A stretch of DNA of 33,022 nt. Source: Thermoplasmata archaeon (GTDB taxonomy: Archaea; Thermoplasmatota; Thermoplasmata; RBG-16-68-12; JAGMCJ01). The notes under the pieces were generated by a model. That model ran no database searches. It was not told the DNA's origin and was given only the letters and a program-made list of their open reading frames with translations. The stretch spans positions 1-33,022 of the forward strand of contig JAGMAI010000110.1 of the NCBI GenBank assembly GCA_023130895.1, in the 5' to 3' direction. Of this stretch, positions 11,075 to 21,316 are shown piece by piece; position 1 is the first letter of the stretch, and each line of letters starts with the position of its first letter. The translations under genes were made by a program, and so were the position numbers.

Positions 11075-11869
11075 TCAGTCCAGGGATATGACCTCGAACG
11101 CGACCTTGTCCTCGGAGTTCGCGTTCCTCTCCATGATGTGAGAGATGGCCTCGTTGCAGTGCTCCTCCGTGCAGAGATAGAGGACGCTGAGGCCCTTTTC
11201 GACCGCCTCGATCGATGCCTGAAGTGGTGCGAACTCCACGTCGGGCTCAAGTCCAGCTCTACTCGCGAGGGCCCTTCCCGAGGCGCCGGACACGGCGACG
11301 AGGTCAGGGTTCTCCCCGCTCATCAGGCGCTTCAGCTTGGAGAGGTTCGCTCCTCTGCTGCCCTTCTTCTCGATCCCGGGTATCTTCCCGAAGACCAGCT
11401 TCCCCGGGTTCAGTCCCGCTATACCATCAAGCTCCGAGATCGCGATGTCCTGGCCCTTCTTCGAGCCGAAGAGAGCGCGACCGGTGGATGACGACCTCTT
11501 TCCGGGATAGGCCTTCAGGTAGCCGTCCTCCATGATCAGCCCGACCTTCTGGCCCTTCCTGATGTCGGAGGCGGCGATCGCCCAGCACACGTCGATTATG
11601 GCCAGGTCCTTGGCGGAGGACTCGATGAACCTCCTCAGCTCGGAGAACCTGTCGTGAAGGAACTGAACGCCCTCCTTCGTGGGCTTGTACACCCCACCGA
11701 CGTTGTGCACGAGGCCCTCGGTGGTCATCGTCTTCAGATAGTCCGATATCCCTTGAACGGTCATCCCGAACCTCTCGGCGAGCGTCTTCAGCTTCGAGTG
11801 TTCCCGCTTGACCAGTTCCAGGAGGATGAGCAGCTTCGTCGTCTCCCTCAGGTCCCTCAGCAACGTCAT
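11075..11869 (-). CDS. Winged-helix transcriptional regulator with C-terminal uncharacterised (possible ligand-binding) domain
   Basis: N-term wHTH (LLILLELVKREHSKLKTLAERFGMTVQGISDYLKTMTTEGLVH); C-terminal domain of unknown function; start directly follows the ATPase stop. Confidence 0.8.
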   Translation of the reverse strand: MTLLRDLRETTKLLILLELVKREHSKLKTLAERFGMTVQGISDYLKTMTTEGLVHNVGGVYKPTKEGVQFLHDRFSELRRFIESSAKDLAIIDVCWAIAASDIRKGQKVGLIMEDGYLKAYPGKRSSSTGRALFGSKKGQDIAISELDGIAGLNPGKLVFGKIPGIEKKGSRGANLSKLKRLMSGENPDLVAVSGASGRALASRAGLEPDVEFAPLQASIEAVEKGLSVLYLCTEEHCNEAISHIMERNANSEDKVAFEVISLD

Positions 11870-12682
11870 TCAATCACCCCCGCCGCTGCCTCTCTTGGCC
11901 GTCCTTGCAGTGGGCACTATCATCACCAGGCCTGTGGACGGGCTCGTCTCGATCGCGACCTTCACGCCGTACACCTTCTCGATGTTCTCGTTCGTCAGCA
12001 CGTCCAACGTCCCGCCGACCTCTTCTACCTTTCCCTTGTCGAGAAGGACGACGTTCTCGCAGTACCTGACGGCCATGTTCAGGTCATGGAATATCGCGAC
12101 AACGATGAGGTTCCTCTCCCCAGCAAGTCCCTCGATCATGTCCATGATCTGCAGCTGGTAGCCCAGGTCCAGATGGGAGGTCGGTTCATCCAGAAGTAGC
12201 ACTCTCGGCTCCTGGGCGAGCGCTCTGGCTATGACCACCCTTTGCTGCTCGCCGCCGCTGAGCTCGGAGAACATCCTCGACCGGAGGTGCCAGCAGTCGG
12301 TCGACAGCATCGCTCCCTTTATGACCGCCAGATCCTCCTCCGATTCCATCTGAAGACGTCCGATGTACGGGGTCCTCCCCATGGCAACGATCTCGTATGC
12401 CGTGAACGCGAACCCGGGACGGGTGGTCTGCGGAACGACGCCGACCTTGCTCGCCACGTCGCGGAAGCTCATTGCCGACAGCATGTCAGTATCCAGCCAC
12501 ACGACTCCGCCGATGGGTTCCAGGACCCTGCTGATGCATCTGATGAGGGTCGTCTTCCCGCACCCGTTCGGACCGACGATGCCGAACAGCGTTCCCGAGG
12601 GCACGTCGAACGTGACGTCCTTCAGGACCTCCGCGCTGTCATAGCTGCATGAGACGCCGTCGATTCTAAGAAGCATAGGCAT
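11870..12682 (-). CDS. ABC transporter ATP-binding protein (FecE/BtuD type)
   Basis: Walker A GPNGCGKTTL, signature LSGGEQQRV, Walker B VLLLDEPTSHLD. Confidence 0.95.
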   Translation of the reverse strand: MPMLLRIDGVSCSYDSAEVLKDVTFDVPSGTLFGIVGPNGCGKTTLIRCISRVLEPIGGVVWLDTDMLSAMSFRDVASKVGVVPQTTRPGFAFTAYEIVAMGRTPYIGRLQMESEEDLAVIKGAMLSTDCWHLRSRMFSELSGGEQQRVVIARALAQEPRVLLLDEPTSHLDLGYQLQIMDMIEGLAGERNLIVVAIFHDLNMAVRYCENVVLLDKGKVEEVGGTLDVLTNENIEKVYGVKVAIETSPSTGLVMIVPTARTAKRGSGGGD

Positions 12683-13724
12683 ACCCTGTCTTCCTCGAGC
12701 GGAGCAGATATATGAAGAACGGAGCTCCGCAGAAGGCGGTTATTATCCCAATGGGGATCTCCTGTCCCCCCGCCACGGTCCGTGCCAGGACATCCATCCA
12801 GATGAGGAATATTCCCCCCGCAAAAGCGCTCGCGGGAATGAGGATGCGATTGTCGGGACCGAGCGTCATTCTGACGATGTGGGGGATTATGAGCCCCACG
12901 AAACCGACGATCCCCACGAAGGCGACCGCGATCGCCGCGAGGATCGATGCGGTCACAAGGACTATTATCTTGACCGTGTCGGCATCCACTCCAAGCTGTT
13001 TCGCTGTCTCCTCGCCCATCAGCATCACGTTCATGTCCCTCGCGAACAGGAAGACCACGAGCCCTCCCATTGCCAGCACGAATGTCGTTATGAGGACCTC
13101 ATCGAACGTGGTCAGGGCGAAGCTGCCCATTATCCAGGAGATTATCAGGTCCCTGTCCTTTCCTGCGGCGTAGAGCATGTAGAAGCTCACGGCGGAGAGG
13201 AAGGACGCGATTGCGACGCCCGCGAGCAGGAGCGTGTCCGTCTTGATCCTGCCCCTGACCTGCGCTATTCCGTACACGGCCGCGACCGTGATGAGGGCAC
13301 CGGAGAAGGCGAGGATCGGCGTGGAGAAGAGGGATGTGAGCCCCCAGATGAGACCCAAGGACACCCCGACGGCCGCACCGGAGGACACACCCAGGATGTA
13401 GGGCTCCGCAAGAGGGTTCCTGAACAGGCACTGCATGACCGCGCCCGAGATGGAGAGGGCCGCTCCGACCGCACAGGCGAGCAATATCCTCGGCAGCCTG
13501 ATGTTGACCAGGATGTTGGAAAGCGGTCCCTCCGCAAGAATGGAATTGAAGAAGTCCGCCCAGGAATATCTGCTGGGAATCCCCGCTCCGATGGGGCCTA
13601 CCGTTCCGAACGCCAAGGAGGCGAAGATCGACGCCAGCATTCCTCCGAACAGGATCACGATCCAGATGTGTCTTGAACGGGACTTCTCGACAACGTCAAC
13701 TGTGGATTCACGAGCCACCGTCAT
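12666..13724 (-). CDS. ABC transporter permease (FecCD/BtuC type)
   Basis: RLPRILLACAVGAALSISGAVMQCLFRNPLAEPYILGVSSGAAVG and GIVGFVGLIIPHIVR motifs. Confidence 0.95.
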   Translation of the reverse strand: MTVARESTVDVVEKSRSRHIWIVILFGGMLASIFASLAFGTVGPIGAGIPSRYSWADFFNSILAEGPLSNILVNIRLPRILLACAVGAALSISGAVMQCLFRNPLAEPYILGVSSGAAVGVSLGLIWGLTSLFSTPILAFSGALITVAAVYGIAQVRGRIKTDTLLLAGVAIASFLSAVSFYMLYAAGKDRDLIISWIMGSFALTTFDEVLITTFVLAMGGLVVFLFARDMNVMLMGEETAKQLGVDADTVKIIVLVTASILAAIAVAFVGIVGFVGLIIPHIVRMTLGPDNRILIPASAFAGGIFLIWMDVLARTVAGGQEIPIGIITAFCGAPFFIYLLRSRKTGYAYAS

Positions 13725-14641
13725 CAGAAGAGTTCAGGATGTATCAGGTGCGCCAGTTCCTCCAACCCGTCGACAATCCTCGGGCCGGGGCGCGATATCA
13801 GGTCGCCGTCGACGGCGAATACCTTGTCATTCTGGATCGCTGAGATGTCCGACCAGCCGGGTCTGGCCTTGATCTCCTCCACGGGCGTGAAGACCGTGAT
13901 TATGATGTCCGGAGAGGATGTCACGACGAACTCCTCGTCCAGCTGCACCCATGGGGATCCCATGCTTCCCGCTATGTTCTCCCCGCCAGCGAGATCGAGC
14001 AGGTCGTCGCCGAACGTTCCCGGACCGTATGTCCACAGATTGCTGTCCAGCTCGACGTAGACGCTCGGCGTCTCAACCCCCAGCATCAGGTCTGCAATCG
14101 TCTCGACCTTTGCGGTCAGGTTGCTGACGAGTCCTTCCGCTTCCGCGTCAGCGTCCGTAATCGAGCCCACGAGTTCGATGTCATCGAATACCCCGTCGAT
14201 GTCCGATGCGTCCAGCACGACGACGGCGAAGCTCCTGTTCTCGAGGTCTCCGATAAGCTCGTCACTGTTGATGGATGACGCCAGTATCAATTGAGGATCG
14301 AGCACTGTGATGACTTCGAGATTGTACCCGCCGAAGTACCCGCCCACGACCGTCTTGTCCTGAGCCTCTGGTGGATAGTTGGAGGCCTGGTCCACTCCGA
14401 CGACCTTGTCATCGAGTCCCAGTGCGAACAGAATCTCCGTGTTGCTCGGGGCCAGCGAGATTATCCTCTCCACTGGTTGAGGCACGGTAACGTCCCGTCC
14501 ATAGTCGTCAACAATCTTCATGCCCGACGGTTCCTCCGTTCCCTGGAGAACAGGAACCACCAGGAGTCCAACAGATAGTCCGCCCACAAAGACAACAGCG
14601 GCTATCACCACAATCATTATCGTACTTGTGCTCTGAGCCAA
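13724..14641 (-). CDS. ABC transporter substrate-binding protein (BtuF/FecB-like), TM-anchored
   Basis: DDYGRDVTVPQPVERIISLAPSNTEILFALGLDDKVVGVD. Likely TTG start at 14641 preceded by AGGAGGAG; ORF track starts at 14719. N-terminal TM IMIVVIAAVVFVGGLSVGLLVV. Confidence 0.9.
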   Translation of the reverse strand: MAQSTSTIMIVVIAAVVFVGGLSVGLLVVPVLQGTEEPSGMKIVDDYGRDVTVPQPVERIISLAPSNTEILFALGLDDKVVGVDQASNYPPEAQDKTVVGGYFGGYNLEVITVLDPQLILASSINSDELIGDLENRSFAVVVLDASDIDGVFDDIELVGSITDADAEAEGLVSNLTAKVETIADLMLGVETPSVYVELDSNLWTYGPGTFGDDLLDLAGGENIAGSMGSPWVQLDEEFVVTSSPDIIITVFTPVEEIKARPGWSDISAIQNDKVFAVDGDLISRPGPRIVDGLEELAHLIHPELF

Positions 14642-14652
14642 ACTTTCTCCTC

Positions 14653-14700
14653 CTAAAGCATACTTTAGAAAAGTCAAATACACTTTAGGTATAAAAGCCT
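14653..14700 (-). promoter_or_regulatory. Promoter/operator of the ABC-importer operon
   Basis: Perfect inverted repeat CTAAAG-CATA-CTTTAG (14653-14668), third CTTTAG half-site at 14683-14688 (20-bp offset), adjoining TATA-like CTTTTATACC (minus strand) at 14689-14698. Confidence 0.6.
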
Positions 14701-14715
14701 GACGAGAGCGCCCCG

Positions 14716-17700
14716 TCACAGTATCTTGGACAGCTTCTCCTTCATGTTCTCAAGGCGCCTTGACCTTACCTCGAGGTCGGTCTGGGCCTTCGAGAGCTCC
14801 TCCTCGGACTTGATGTTCTTCGCTTCGAGGACGGAGATCTTCTTCTCCTTCTTCTCGAGCGTCTTCTCCCTGGCCTGCAGCTTCCTGGAGAGTTCTGAGG
14901 TCTGAATCTTCTCCTTCTCCAGCTTCTTCGACTCGCTCTGAAGTCTCAGCTTCTCCTTGGCGGTCGCCTTCCCGAGCTCCGAGTCGAGCTTCCTCTCACG
15001 GTCGGACAGCCGCTTGCTTTCCTTCTCCATCCTGGACAGCATCTCGTTGACGGACTTCCTCTCCTTGGTGATGGACTCCTTCTCGAGCTCCAGCTCCTTC
15101 TTGAGGGCGAGGACTTCCTCTTCCTTGCGCTCCAGCCGGGTCAAGGAACTCACGGCTTCGGCCTTGGTCGCCAGGGCTTCCTCGACCTCCTTGGTCTTCT
15201 CGTCGATGTCCCTCTGCTTCGCCTCCAGGTCCGCGAGGGCCCTCTCGATCTCCTCGTCCATCCTGGTCTTCTTGTCCTTCACCATGGACTCGGCGTACTC
15301 GAGCAGCGAGGCCGTGGTCTCCTTCGTCTCCGCGATCTCCCTCTCCCTTTCCTTGAGCTCGTGCCACTCGTCCTCCAGCCTGCTCATCTCCTGATCGATG
15401 AGCTTCGATGTCCTCTCCAGCTCCAGCGACTTCTCCGCGATCGCCCTCTCCTGCGTCTCCAGGGAGCTGAGCTTCGCCGGGAGCTCTGACTCGATGTTCT
15501 CGAGCTTCTTCCTCTCGCCCACGATCTCCACGCTGCGCTGGTCCAGGGTGCTCTGCTTCTCCTCGAGCTCCTTGCTCCACTTGGACAGCTTCTGCTCCCA
15601 CTGCTGGACGTCCTCGCCTCTGGACGCAAGCTCTCCCTGATCCCTTCCCGTCTTCTCGATGGCCTCGCGCAGTTCCTCTTCCCTGCCCTCGAGCTCCTTC
15701 CTCATCAGGTTGATGTCGGCCTCGGCCCTAAGCACGTCCCCGGACTTCTGGTCCAGCTTCCCGCGCTTCTCCTTGATCGTCTTCTCCTCGTCCAGGACCG
15801 TGCTCCTGAGACCTTCTAGGCGTTTGCCTTCCCGTCCGAGGTTCTTCCACAGCTCGTCGAGCTTCAGCTTCTCCTTGGATGACGTCTTCTCCGCGCTCGC
15901 GAGGTCGCCCTCGAGCTCCTTCAGCACCGTCTTCTTCTTCTCCAGGTCCGACTCGCGGGAGTGCAGGTCATCCTCCCTCGCTATCAGATGGGCCTCGGTC
16001 TCGGAGGTCTCCGTCTCCCTCCTCTCGAGGTAGTCCATGCGCTTCTTCAGGTCCTCCTCTTCGACCTTCAGCTTGTCCAGCTTCTTCGCCATCACCGTCT
16101 CCAGCTCGTCGATCGCGAGCTTCTTGCCCTCGACCTCCCCTTCCAGCACGTTGAGACCCCTCGCCCTCTTCTCCGAGAGGTTCTTCTCGCTCTTGACGAG
16201 CCCGCGTTCCTTGTCGATCTCCTCCTGCTGCTTCTCCAGGTCCCTCTCTATCCTTGATTTCTCCCGCTCGAAGACGTCAACGCCCTTCGAGAGGTCCCTC
16301 GTGCCCTTCTCGAGCTTGAGCCTCTTCTTCTCCAGCTCCTTCGTTTCCTTCCGGACCGCGGTCTCCCGCTTCTTGACCTCCGAAAGCCTGGAGCTGATCT
16401 CGTCCTCGTGCTTTACCGTGGCGGACTCCCGCTGGTTCAGCGATTCTATCTCCCCGCTCATCTCTTCCCGTTCGCTGGCAAGCTTGGCCTCGACGTCCTT
16501 CAGGTCCTTGTCCTTGGCTCGGGCCTCTTCCTCCATCCAGTTCAGTCGGTCCCTGTAGGACACCAGGGACTCTTCCATCTCCGAGATCTCGTCGAACTTG
16601 AACGATAGCTCCTCTTCTTTGGCGAGCAGGGCCTTCTCCCTCTTCACGATCCTTTCGTTCTTCGTGTCCAAACCCTTCGCTTTCTCCGACAGGGCCTTCT
16701 TCCTGTCCTTGAGGATCGACTGGAGGTCCTGGCTCTCGGACTCCGTCCTCTTGACCTTGCTCTCCCTCTCCAGCAGCGTCTCCCTCAGGTGATCGAACCC
16801 CTCTTCCGTCTCCGCCATCTGGGCGAACTTGGACTCGAGCGCTTTCTCCTTGGAGGTCAGGAACTTCTCCTGCTTCTTCAGCTGGATCTCCTTCTCCTTC
16901 AGTGCGATCTCCTTGTCGGAGAGCTTCTCCCTGGCCTTCTCGAACGCTTCCTTTCTCTTGAACAGGGCCTTGTTCTCGGAGCCCAGCTCCTTTTTCGCCT
17001 TCTCATGCTCGCCGAGCGTTCCCTTGATCTCTTTCTCCTTCGCTGCGACGGACTCCTCTCGCTCCTCGAGCTCGGTTCCCTTCAGATCCAGGGTCCTCTT
17101 CTCTCTCTCGACCCTCTTCTTGAGCTTCCTTTCCTCCGCCTTGATGGCCTTCTTCTCTGCCTTCCAGGCCTTCGACATCTCCTCGAACTCGTCCATCTTC
17201 TTCTGGACGTTCTTCTCCTTGGTTGCGAGCGCCCGTCTCTTGCTGGTCCATTTCTTGGACTCCTCGGAGAAGGACTTCGTGGCCTCTCTCAGCATCGCCT
17301 CACGGCGGTCTATCTCCTTGATCTTCTCCTCCCCTTCCTCCCATCTCTTGAGGAGCTGCCTCTCTCTCTCGCCGAGCTCTTCCTTCGTGAGGCTGACACC
17401 GCTTCGCATGCCCTCCAGGTCCTTCCGTTCCTCGGCCAGGACGGCCTCCCTGTCTGCCAGTCCATTGTCCTTCCTCTCGAGCCCCTCCCTCGTCCTCTGC
17501 AGCTCTTCCTCGCTTTCCTTCCGCATCTCCTTGAACTCTCTGTCCTTCTCCTCGAGCGTCTGCTTCAGTTCCGCGACTTTCTGTTCCCTGGAATGGATCT
17601 CCTTCTCTGCCTCTGACGCCTTCTCTTCAGCCTCGGCGATGCCCTGTTCCCTGCTGTCGAGGGTCTTCTTCTTGCGCGCGAGGGACTTGGATTTCTTCTC

Positions 17701-18474
17701 CAGGGTCCTGGATCTCTTCTCTGTACCCTCGGTCTCCCCTTCCAGCTCCGATATCCGCTTGTCCTTCTCCTCGATCTCGCTCCGCAGGTCGGATTCCCGT
17801 TGCTCGAGGTCCGATGTGGACTTCTCTTCCTTCTCTCTTTCCTCGCCCATTGTGCCGATCTGGCCCTTGAGCTTCTCAACTTCCTTGGCGAGCTTGCCCG
17901 CTTTGCTCGCCTCCTTGGCCTTGATCTTCAGCTCTTCCTGGGCCGTCTCGAGTTCTCCCTCCAGCTTGCTCAGGTAGGTCCTTGCCTCCTCCAGCTCTGT
18001 GCTCAGTCTCCCGGATTCGGCCTCGGACTCCTTCTTTCCTTTGGTGGCGAGTTGCTTCGCCTCCTTGGTCTTGATCTTCAGCTCATCCCGAACGGACTTG
18101 AGTTCTTCATCCAGCCTGTTCGCGTCCGCCTTCGCCTTCTCCAGCTGCGTCTTGAGCTTCTCCGCTTCCCCCGCAGATTCCTTCTTCCCTTCACTGGCGA
18201 GCTGCTTCGCCTCCTTCTCGGCCTTCTTGAGGTCCTTCTTGCCCGCTGTGAGCTGCTTCTCCACGTCCTTGATCTGCTTCTTCTGCTCTGAGAGTGCCTT
18301 CTCCTTGCCCTTCACGTTCTCCTGCAGCGATCCGATCTCATCCTGCGCGGACTTCAGCTCGTCCTGCAGTCTCTCGATCTCCCCCCTAAGCTCCTCGGTC
18401 TCGTCGTAGACCTCGACCTCTTTGGCCTCGACATCCCCCGAAAGCATCTCCTTGGCTCTTTCTCTCAGTCCCAT
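14716..18474 (-). CDS. Giant (1252 aa) coiled-coil protein, no recognisable globular domain
   Basis: Continuous K/E/L-rich heptad-like sequence; by eye one proline and no cysteine. Starts 5 bp after the stop of the upstream zinc-ribbon coiled-coil gene. Confidence 0.9.
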   Translation of the reverse strand: MGLRERAKEMLSGDVEAKEVEVYDETEELRGEIERLQDELKSAQDEIGSLQENVKGKEKALSEQKKQIKDVEKQLTAGKKDLKKAEKEAKQLASEGKKESAGEAEKLKTQLEKAKADANRLDEELKSVRDELKIKTKEAKQLATKGKKESEAESGRLSTELEEARTYLSKLEGELETAQEELKIKAKEASKAGKLAKEVEKLKGQIGTMGEEREKEEKSTSDLEQRESDLRSEIEEKDKRISELEGETEGTEKRSRTLEKKSKSLARKKKTLDSREQGIAEAEEKASEAEKEIHSREQKVAELKQTLEEKDREFKEMRKESEEELQRTREGLERKDNGLADREAVLAEERKDLEGMRSGVSLTKEELGERERQLLKRWEEGEEKIKEIDRREAMLREATKSFSEESKKWTSKRRALATKEKNVQKKMDEFEEMSKAWKAEKKAIKAEERKLKKRVEREKRTLDLKGTELEEREESVAAKEKEIKGTLGEHEKAKKELGSENKALFKRKEAFEKAREKLSDKEIALKEKEIQLKKQEKFLTSKEKALESKFAQMAETEEGFDHLRETLLERESKVKRTESESQDLQSILKDRKKALSEKAKGLDTKNERIVKREKALLAKEEELSFKFDEISEMEESLVSYRDRLNWMEEEARAKDKDLKDVEAKLASEREEMSGEIESLNQRESATVKHEDEISSRLSEVKKRETAVRKETKELEKKRLKLEKGTRDLSKGVDVFEREKSRIERDLEKQQEEIDKERGLVKSEKNLSEKRARGLNVLEGEVEGKKLAIDELETVMAKKLDKLKVEEEDLKKRMDYLERRETETSETEAHLIAREDDLHSRESDLEKKKTVLKELEGDLASAEKTSSKEKLKLDELWKNLGREGKRLEGLRSTVLDEEKTIKEKRGKLDQKSGDVLRAEADINLMRKELEGREEELREAIEKTGRDQGELASRGEDVQQWEQKLSKWSKELEEKQSTLDQRSVEIVGERKKLENIESELPAKLSSLETQERAIAEKSLELERTSKLIDQEMSRLEDEWHELKEREREIAETKETTASLLEYAESMVKDKKTRMDEEIERALADLEAKQRDIDEKTKEVEEALATKAEAVSSLTRLERKEEEVLALKKELELEKESITKERKSVNEMLSRMEKESKRLSDRERKLDSELGKATAKEKLRLQSESKKLEKEKIQTSELSRKLQAREKTLEKKEKKISVLEAKNIKSEEELSKAQTDLEVRSRRLENMKEKLSKIL
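17917..18216 (-). repeat. Two tandem 150-bp (50-aa) diverged repeats inside the coiled-coil gene
   Basis: KEAKQLASEGKKESAGEAEKLKTQLEKAKADANRLDEELKSVRDELKIKT followed by KEAKQLATKGKKESEAESGRLSTELEEARTYLSKLEGELETAQEELKIKA, ungapped. Confidence 0.85.
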
Positions 18475-18479
18475 CTCAT

Positions 18480-19592
18480 CTACCCCTCACAGCTTTCCAG
18501 CACCTTCTCGTACTTCTTGAAATCATTTGACTTGGCAAACTCCTGAACGATGTTATCAGGCAACTCCCCGAGGAGGGCGTCGAGCCTCTTCAGGACGTCC
18601 TTCATCTCGTGGTTCTGGTCCGAGAGCTGGCGGCTCTGGTCCTCGAGAACGTCCTTGGCCTTCACTATTCTGTCCATGTCGCCCTCGACCTCTCCGATCC
18701 GCCTCTCCAGGGACTCTATCTTCTCTTCGTTCTCCCGCTGAAGGTTCGGGTCAGGGACCTCTTCGAGCCTCGACAGCTGCGCCTCGGCACTTGCTCCGGA
18801 CCCCGCCTCCGCGAGGCGCGCCTCGACCTCTTCCGCTATCCTCCTTTCCGTCTTCTCGACCTCTTGCTCCCGGTTCTCGAGCGAGCCGTCCTTCTTCGCC
18901 AGTTCCTCCTCCTTCTCCTTGAGCGAGCGCTCCCAGTCGACCAACCGCTTCTTGTCCTTGTCCCGCCTCACGATCTCCTTCTGGAAGACCTCCAGGCGGA
19001 GCTTCAGGTTGTCCTCCTTCCTCTTGAGCTCCGTCTCCTGCAGAGAGAGCAGGTTCCTGTAGATCGTCTCCATCTCGATGATGCCCTTCTCGATCTCCAT
19101 GACCTCGTTCCGCTCTTCTTCCAGCTGTGCGACCTGTCTCTCGAGCTCGGACTTCTCCATCATCTCCACTTCGTCCGTGGAGCTCTTCAGTTCTCTTATC
19201 CTCTTCTGGGCCGATTTGAGAAGGACGTTCATCTGCTCCAGCTTCTTCCTCCTCAGCCTGATCACTCTCTGGAAGGGCTCGGCCAGCTCCCATATCCGGT
19301 GCGTGGAGTCCATGAGAGAGGTGCTCTCGACGAGCTCTCTCAGGAAGTCCTCCTCCAGCTTGTCGTCCTCGGTGGGGCTCTCGATGTCCAGGGGCTTGAT
19401 GGGAGCGCCGCAGTTGGGACACTCGTTCGTGCCCGTCCGCACGATCGAAAGACAGGATTGGCAACGATAGGCCTCGAACTCGTCATGGAAGTCGGACCCG
19501 CAGTTGCTGCAGCTTATCTCTTCCTCTCTGACTTCCGCTCCGCACAAGGAGCAGAACAGCTTCTGGTCTCCCAATCTGGCCTTGGGTATCAT
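18480..19592 (-). CDS. Double zinc-ribbon protein with long coiled coil
   Basis: N-terminal CSLC...CSNC and CQSC...CPNC pairs, then about 280 aa of coiled coil; ends in a short non-coil segment. Confidence 0.88.
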   Translation of the reverse strand: MIPKARLGDQKLFCSLCGAEVREEEISCSNCGSDFHDEFEAYRCQSCLSIVRTGTNECPNCGAPIKPLDIESPTEDDKLEEDFLRELVESTSLMDSTHRIWELAEPFQRVIRLRRKKLEQMNVLLKSAQKRIRELKSSTDEVEMMEKSELERQVAQLEEERNEVMEIEKGIIEMETIYRNLLSLQETELKRKEDNLKLRLEVFQKEIVRRDKDKKRLVDWERSLKEKEEELAKKDGSLENREQEVEKTERRIAEEVEARLAEAGSGASAEAQLSRLEEVPDPNLQRENEEKIESLERRIGEVEGDMDRIVKAKDVLEDQSRQLSDQNHEMKDVLKRLDALLGELPDNIVQEFAKSNDFKKYEKVLESCEG

Positions 19593-19609: not shown

Positions 19610-20128
19610 CTATTCACACTTGTTGTAGCACACGATCTCGTTCAGGTGCTTCCTCCCAGACGATTCTGGGTCTCCATTGGGCACTCCAAGGGGCGTAAGA
19701 GCGATCACCTTGACGTCCTCGGACGCCTGGACGGCTGACCTGACCTTCTCCTCGTTGAAGGTGTTGATCCAGCATGTGCCCAGGCCCTCGCTCTCTGCCG
19801 CTAAGGTCAGATAGGCCATGGCCAATGCCACGTCCACCGGATAGCTGCTCATGTATCCCCCGATCATGCCCTGTGCCTCATCCAACAACCCACAGGCCAC
19901 CACTACCAAAGGTGCTTCGGCAATCCATTTCTGGTTGCCTGATGCTGCAGCCAGCTGTCTCTTCACGTCCTCATCGGTTACGATCACGAACCTCCATGGC
20001 TGCAGATTATCGACGGAAGGAGCCATTCTGACGCTGTTGAAAACCTTCTGTATCTGCTCCGCAGAGAGAGGCGTAGGCTGGTAGCTTCTAACGCTCTTTC
20101 TTTGCTTCATCGCCTCTAGAACGTCCAT
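19610..20128 (-). CDS. Nitroreductase family protein
   Basis: AMKQRKSVRSYQPTPLSAEQIQKVFNSVRMAPSVDNLQPWRFVIV; GLGTCWINTF; LTPLGVPNGDP typical of FMN nitroreductases. Confidence 0.92.
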   Translation of the reverse strand: MDVLEAMKQRKSVRSYQPTPLSAEQIQKVFNSVRMAPSVDNLQPWRFVIVTDEDVKRQLAAASGNQKWIAEAPLVVVACGLLDEAQGMIGGYMSSYPVDVALAMAYLTLAAESEGLGTCWINTFNEEKVRSAVQASEDVKVIALTPLGVPNGDPESSGRKHLNEIVCYNKCE

Positions 20129-20485: not shown

Positions 20486-21316
20486 ATGGAACAAACACAA
20501 AGTACTGGAAGTGAGCCGTATGGTGAATCTGCACCGCCTCCGATGGCGGCTGCACCGCCTCCTGCCCGAAAGACCGATGTTGCCAAGCCTGCACTAGTTG
20601 TAGCAGTAGTTGCCGTGGCGTTGGCCTTGATCGGAATGGTGGCCATCCCAGGACCTGAGGGTCCCGAGGGGGCACCAGGGTTAGAGGGGGATGACGGAGA
20701 TCAGGGAGACACCGGACCGCGGGGAAGTGATGGACCACAAGGACCTAGTGGCGCGGATGGTATCGCCTGCTGGGACCTCAACGGAAACGGAACAGGAGAT
20801 ATCCCAGACGAAGACATAAACGGGGACCTCGTTGTGGATGTGCTGGATTGCACTGGACCTCAAGGGATACAGGGAGACCCTGGACCTCAAGGGATACAGG
20901 GAGACCCTGGACCGCAGGGGATACAGGGAATACAAGGACCACAGGGACCGGACGGGCCGCAGGGACCGCAAGGAGTCCCCGGGCCAATTGGACCGCAGGG
21001 AATACAAGGACCGCCTGGGACCCCGGCCACGGTGTTGTGGGCAGTCGTCGAATCGAACGGAACGCTCTACCGCGGGAGCAACGTCGTGAGTACCAACTGG
21101 GAAGGAACGGGCGATTACACTATCCGTTTCAACCAGGACGTGCGCGCCTGCGTCTACGTCGCGACGCTCGGTTACACCGGCTTCACAGGGGTGCCACCGC
21201 CAGGGAGTATTGCGGTCGTTGGTGAGTTTGCAGACCCGACTGGCATCTGGGTCTCGACCGACGACATGACTGGCACGGCGACTGACCGATCGTTCCACGT
21301 AGCTATCTTCTGCTAG
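20486..21316 (+). CDS. Membrane-anchored collagen-like (Gly-X-Y) surface protein
   Basis: Pro-rich N-term, TM ([20 protein letters not shown]), Gly-X-Y blocks of about 12 and 19 triplets separated by [29 protein letters not shown], globular C-terminal domain. RBS AAGGAGG upstream. Confidence 0.9.
20854..20928 (+). repeat. 27-bp tandem repeat (two exact copies plus a degenerate third)
   Basis: TGGACCTCAAGGGATACAGGGAGACCC at 20854-20880 and 20881-20907, then TGGACCGCAGGGGATACAGGG; encodes GPQGIQGDP. Confidence 0.95.

Follow-up and report, generated by a model that had tools for sequence, protein, structure and literature searches.

A pair of adjacent genes in a metagenome-assembled Thermoplasmata genome (i.e., that of an uncultured archaeon) encodes a 370-aa zinc-ribbon protein (A) and a 1252-aa coiled-coil rod (B), and the two protein ends that face each other across the gene junction recur throughout the phylum Thermoplasmatota. 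We propose, at roughly even odds of being correct, that this pair is an instance of a two-gene docking module that would be assembled co-translationally, with the rod acting as a cytoplasmic spacer or scaffold. The features of the analyzed stretch of DNA (33,022 nt; referred to here as the window) are as follows.

18480..19592, minus strand: gene A, 370-aa adaptor with two zinc ribbons, coiled coil, and a C-terminal FAKS module
14716..18474, minus strand: gene B, 1252-aa coiled-coil rod
18475..18479, minus strand: 5-nt gap between the stop of A and the start of B (from the sequence)
19500..19553, minus strand: zinc ribbon 1 of A, Cys 14, 17, 28, and 31 (PF13240, E = 4e-8; cysteine positions)
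19410..19463, minus strand: zinc ribbon 2 of A, Cys 44, 47, 58, and 61 (cysteine positions; double-zinc-ribbon match at residues 14-62, slightly below the cut-off)
18567..19370, minus strand: helical/coiled-coil stalk of A, residues 75-342 (AlphaFold2 helices; hydrophobic period 3.54)
18486..18608, minus strand: FAKS module, C-terminal ~42 aa of A (profile A1, E = 3.9e-21 in its own genome)
18448..18474, minus strand: N-terminal tag of B, MGLRERAKE (consensus MGL[RL][ED][KR]A in residues 1-7)
14719..15918, minus strand: C-terminal ~400 aa of rod B, in conserved register (alignment across families)
19610..20128, minus strand: nitroreductase, 17 nt upstream of the pair (PF00881, E = 9e-27; neighborhoods)
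11075..14719, minus strand: downstream genes for a BtuF-like binding protein, an FecCD permease, an ABC ATPase, and a wHTH/DUF7839 protein (same directon)

The coordinates confirmed the arrangement given in a preliminary description of this DNA, namely, genes for 370 and 1252 aa lying 5 nt apart, here on the minus strand and in different reading frames. Protein A was described there as two Cys4 zinc ribbons followed by a coiled coil, and the cysteine positions, the PF13240 match, and the hydrophobic period of 3.54 agree with this; a ninth cysteine lies at residue 368. Stalk helices were predicted by AlphaFold2 at residues 75-135, 141-260, and 282-342, and the C-terminal element was predicted to comprise a helix end and two short helices, in a model (mean pLDDT of 70, lower at the C-terminal end; 3-sequence alignment) that serves as a sketch only.

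Protein B is free of cysteine and has a single proline, at residue 999. In each 105-aa segment, the strongest hydrophobic period is 3.48 to 3.56 residues, i.e., a heptad period from end to end; for the protein as a whole, the peak lies at 3.50 and is above the 99th percentile of shuffled sequences. The maximum 19-aa hydropathy of 0.17 reveals no hydrophobic or transmembrane segment, and B has no Pfam match; the earlier picture of a pure coiled coil devoid of ATPase and transmembrane domains thus stands. As a continuous helix, B would measure ~186 nm, in line with the suggestion of a rod well over 100 nm long if extended. Across four genomes of the genus, dN/dS was 0.25 to 0.29 for B and 0.19 to 0.30 for A; both genes are therefore under purifying selection, and B is a real coding sequence.

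The long coiled coil also calls to mind SMC proteins, Rad50, and archaea-specific SMC-related proteins, and B might be a degenerate or specialized chromosome protein or tether of this kind, a reading that we find barely credible. B does produce coil-level hits to SMC models (TIGR02168, E = 4e-23), but these reach 81 bits against a cut-off of 567 for TIGR02168 and 60 against 300 for NF045487 and are accounted for by coiled-coil composition. Unlike the SMC and Rad50 proteins, B has no ATPase head: a motif search of the whole protein found neither a Walker A motif ([AG]xxxxGK[ST]) nor an ABC signature (LSGG), and the pair is conserved without an ATPase partner. We therefore rejected kinship with SMC/Rad50, as had been argued from the missing Walker motifs.

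Among the genes flanking the pair, rod gene B overlaps the start of the ABC-transporter operon (13724-14719 onward) by 4 nt. In the neighborhoods of relatives, this BtuF-FecCD-ATPase operon follows the pair only in the window's genus, and these genes are thus not part of the module. A role in vitamin B12 or iron uptake, as the operon might suggest, was rejected; elsewhere, unrelated genes come after the pair. On the other side, a small nitroreductase lies directly 5' of the pair in families f1, f2, f3, f4, f8, f20, and f23 (window 19610-20128, minus strand; loci L038, L040, L049, L058, L067, L068, L071, L109, and L117). Farther upstream, positions 20486-21316 on the plus strand encode a protein of 276 aa that has a hydrophobic segment at its N terminus as well as collagen-like repeats (PF01391, E = 1e-17), which is unusual for an archaeon.

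Conservation in A is strongest in the cysteines of the zinc ribbons and in a C-terminal stretch of ~42 residues, named FAKS here (consensus ...LDxLLGxLPxExIxKFAKSxDFxLYEKVLD...), which with few exceptions lies 0 to 9 residues from the stop. The part of A that precedes FAKS varies by lineage and may carry zinc ribbons, plain coil, or an EF-hand-like motif. The last of these occurs in family f57 (L156, L157, and L163), where A also has two FAKS copies; the motif matches PF00036 at E = 1e-5 in L157, slightly below the cut-off, and because of it the putative docking in this family might be calcium linked. A FAKS profile had matches in 79 of the 400 genomes sampled from the class and in 140 of the 390 sampled across the phylum, counts that describe Thermoplasmatota and do not imply that the module is confined to this phylum. 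The module is missing from several complete genomes of the class and is thus not essential there.

In other families of the class, relatives of A have directly 3' a long coiled-coil gene (767 to 2191 aa) or the start of one at the contig end. A and B co-occur in every class family examined in which the contig continues, one variant family having a near-tag. Residues 1 to 7 of B are nearly invariant (M-G-L-[RL]-[ED]-[KR]-A), with G and L at 100% and A at 91%. The fetched loci contain 126 FAKS ORFs, 124 of them with downstream sequence, and the next ORF bears the tag in 102 of these 124 (median gap, 6 nt); these are counts of sequences and not of independent events, and the family-level table covers 25 families from the window's class and others. 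Near-tags (MSLKDKAKK, MGFLEKAQ, MSLIEKTQ, and MGLLEIVQ) follow FAKS in four more. Conversely, all 51 tagged genes among the 1037 called genes of the loci adjoin FAKS, and none of the 1037 has the tag away from it. Across 25 whole genomes, the tag pattern occurs almost only on gene B, and it had no match in five near-complete genomes without FAKS. Co-occurrence in related genomes, which the preliminary description had proposed as a test, thus holds far beyond chance.

Conserved segments that adjoin on the DNA, usually 0 to 20 nt apart, might reflect translational coupling or a DNA or RNA element at the gene junction instead of protein docking. This is very improbable in our view: the gap between A and B ranges from -14 to 109 nt, the codons of the tag differ synonymously between relatives while its residues are kept, and FAKS is conserved as a protein even where no tag comes after it.

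What follows the tag differs by lineage. Pure rods are found in the window's class and in f39/f54, and f8/f23 have DUF835 plus a rod (DUF835, E = 8e-29 in L068). Families f48 and f52 have the tag on a PilB3-type pilus ATPase, after which T2SSF platform proteins are encoded; the f52 ATPase has an additional zinc ribbon. The f45 payload combines zinc ribbons, DUF835, and a MoxR-like AAA+ domain; that of f44 has an RDD membrane domain, and those of f49/f57 are small membrane proteins (hydrophobic segments judged by eye). Only the abutting ends are common to the pairs; the head of A and the body of B are replaced from lineage to lineage.

Because the end of A and the start of B are all that is shared phylum-wide, the simplest explanation would be that these ends bind each other. 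We propose that A is an adaptor composed of a zinc-ribbon head, a coiled-coil stalk, and the helical FAKS module, and that B is a payload bearing the seven-residue tag. FAKS, completed just ahead of the start of B on the same mRNA, would bind the tag of B as it emerges, so that the pair would assemble during synthesis. The suggestion that the zinc-ribbon protein provides the anchoring is plausible in this light, as its C-terminal module and the N-terminal tag of the rod are co-conserved neighbors.

Two further features are consistent with docking. Two "middle" proteins (L101 in f26 and L159 in f48) carry both elements, the tag N-terminally and FAKS C-terminally, in the gene order A, AB, B, which is the order that a putative docking chain predicts. 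In addition, the residue at tag position 4 varies together with that at FAKS position 26: of the 17 families whose tag has R, 13 have K at the FAKS position, against none of the 8 families whose tag has L (best of 42 columns; P = 0.0005, uncorrected for multiple columns or phylogeny). Families that deviate from their class follow the same rule, with R and K in f45 and f52 and L without a majority K in f19 and f34. This covariation weakly suggests docking.

If these contacts extend to all payloads, FAKS and the tag would form a plug and socket used across Thermoplasmatota, joining rods (100 to 300 nm), pilus motor ATPases, AAA+ ATPases, and membrane proteins to adaptors co-translationally; it would be chainable through the two-ended proteins, and KaiC-family FAKS proteins would use the same sockets. 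We hold this broader proposal tentatively, as a possibility somewhat short of an even chance.

The rods themselves show where length is free to change. Their last ~400 residues align in a largely gap-free register in many families, and the landmarks in B are W876, LLEYA near residue 1060 (an LL-YA motif across families), and the shared end; tryptophans lie about 378 and 107 residues from the end in the rods, the latter being absent from the window rod. Outside the conserved ends, the rods vary freely, with lengths from 767 to 2191 aa. In f4, segments of 239 or 179 residues have been duplicated in tandem and in frame, enlarging the rods; the ~2190-aa rods of L046 and L048 contain exact in-frame repeats of 239 residues, a clear case of growth by duplication. 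Fixed ends and a free middle are the pattern that would be expected of a spacer or tether.

The same properties, i.e., a very long pure coiled coil, a C-terminal ~400 aa in conserved register, and lengths that change by duplication, would also suit a self-assembling cytoskeletal filament, in which the rod polymerizes like an intermediate filament, the zinc-ribbon protein nucleates or anchors it, and the conserved ends serve for assembly or anchoring instead of docking to each other. We regard this as unlikely. B has no long charge period exceeding that of shuffles, unlike packed filaments such as myosin, and the same tag and FAKS accompany proteins that are not rods (pilus ATPases, AAA+ proteins, and membrane proteins). 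Myosin-like packing was rejected on the missing charge period. The preliminary interpretation is supported in part: the pair co-occurs and no library assigned the rod to a known family, and the filament, cytoskeletal, chromosomal, and cell-shape roles that it raised are hypothetical. It did not include the conserved ends, the pairs with other payloads across the phylum, or the links to DUF835 and KaiC.

Judging from its shape and associations, the rod of up to ~186 nm would, in the docking model, serve as a spacer or scaffold in the cytoplasm, with zinc-ribbon adaptors held at its N-terminal end and a further partner at the other. This scaffold is probably tied to KaiC/iKaiC signaling proteins, some of which have FAKS or DUF835. 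KaiC-type signaling is suggested as what the rod organizes because DUF835, listed as an inactivated KaiC domain (PMC5847659), occurs within related rods, because FAKS is present on iKaiC proteins, and because genomes with the pair have more KaiC-like hits (mean of 17 versus 5 in those without it, phylogeny being ignored).

FAKS proteins without an adjoining tag also exist, including KaiC-linked and orphan coiled-coil proteins, and FAKS may therefore have other ligands or act in trans. Many of the tagless proteins are of the KaiC/DUF7504 type and lie beside a KaiC ATPase. In f25, f17, and f26 (L096, L098, L099, L102, and L119), a cluster recurs in which a KaiC/DUF7504-type protein with FAKS at its end is encoded together with a KaiC ATPase and two small proteins. 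In the window's own genome, locus L095 (624-5462; contig C203) encodes a second FAKS-ending coiled-coil protein, of 532 aa, and its neighbors include a Rab-like small GTPase and a protein with zinc ribbon and TPR. In f4 (L111 and L112), membrane coiled-coil proteins end in a FAKS variant, and the protein that follows at -4 nt begins with MSPLF...REaAEaAL, which might be a tag of another type.

These associations raise the question of whether the pair mainly organizes KaiC-family and DUF835 proteins, with FAKS and the tag belonging to a KaiC network and not to a general docking code. The DUF835 domains within the f8/f23 rods, the FAKS proteins adjoining KaiC ATPases, and the KaiC-like hit counts are in favor of this reading, which we consider distinctly unlikely and which overlaps the docking model. 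The KaiC counts ignore phylogeny, two genomes without the pair (G049 and G090) are also KaiC rich, and the payloads of f48, f44, f49, and f57 have no match to KaiC or DUF835. An archaellum scaffold was likewise considered and rejected: ArlH scored above the cut-off in only 5 of the 22 pair-bearing genomes examined, and it did so in G049 and G090 as well.

Neither of the two elements is represented in Pfam, NCBIfam, or PDB sequences, FAKS has no sequence match to solved structures, and our literature search found no paper describing the A-B pair. If the ends dock, they would represent a general rule for how proteins are wired together in an archaeal phylum, one that can be read from sequence alone and that predicts which proteins are physically joined. 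They would also offer an entry point to uncharacterized scaffolds, pilus motors, and KaiC signaling in largely uncultured lineages, and would define a family of very long non-SMC prokaryotic coiled-coil proteins (~186 nm in the window; longest found here, 2191 aa). The longest prokaryotic coiled coils in a 22-proteome survey are in SMC, MukB, SbcC, and Rad50 (PMC1322226).

Several known systems share parts of this organization. Like KaiC and DUF835 (iKaiC) signaling proteins (PMC5847659), the module is associated with DUF835 within related rods and with FAKS on KaiC-type proteins, but a Pfam scan found no KaiC or DUF835 domain in the window pair itself. Archaeal type IV pilus loci (PMC4858521) are known to include accessory proteins with coiled coils and Zn ribbons, and the tagged PilB3-type ATPases of f48 and f52 lie beside T2SSF platform proteins as in such loci; the A-B pair is not described in the passages of the 2016 census that were consulted, and, unlike in pilus loci, no secretion ATPase, platform, or pilin gene was found among the window neighbors scanned. 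Bacterial coiled-coil-rich filament and polarity proteins (HmpF, NF038350) resemble B in being long coiled coils, with a weak coil-level match (E = 2e-6), but B scores 26.6 bits against a cut-off of 200, with no sign of common descent. The docking (COM) domains of polyketide synthases and nonribosomal peptide synthetases (NRPS) are paired terminal elements on consecutive gene products. The present module has the same arrangement, i.e., conserved ends on successive products, C-terminal on the first and N-terminal on the second (102 of 124 FAKS ORFs; 51 of 51 tagged genes), with bodies that differ and, if the ends dock, with the capacity to be chained. Unlike in those systems, the payloads here are rods, pilus ATPases, AAA+ proteins, and membrane proteins, and the likeness is one of operation, with no sequence relation claimed; if docking holds, the window module would work like polyketide synthase docking pairs without being a member of that group.
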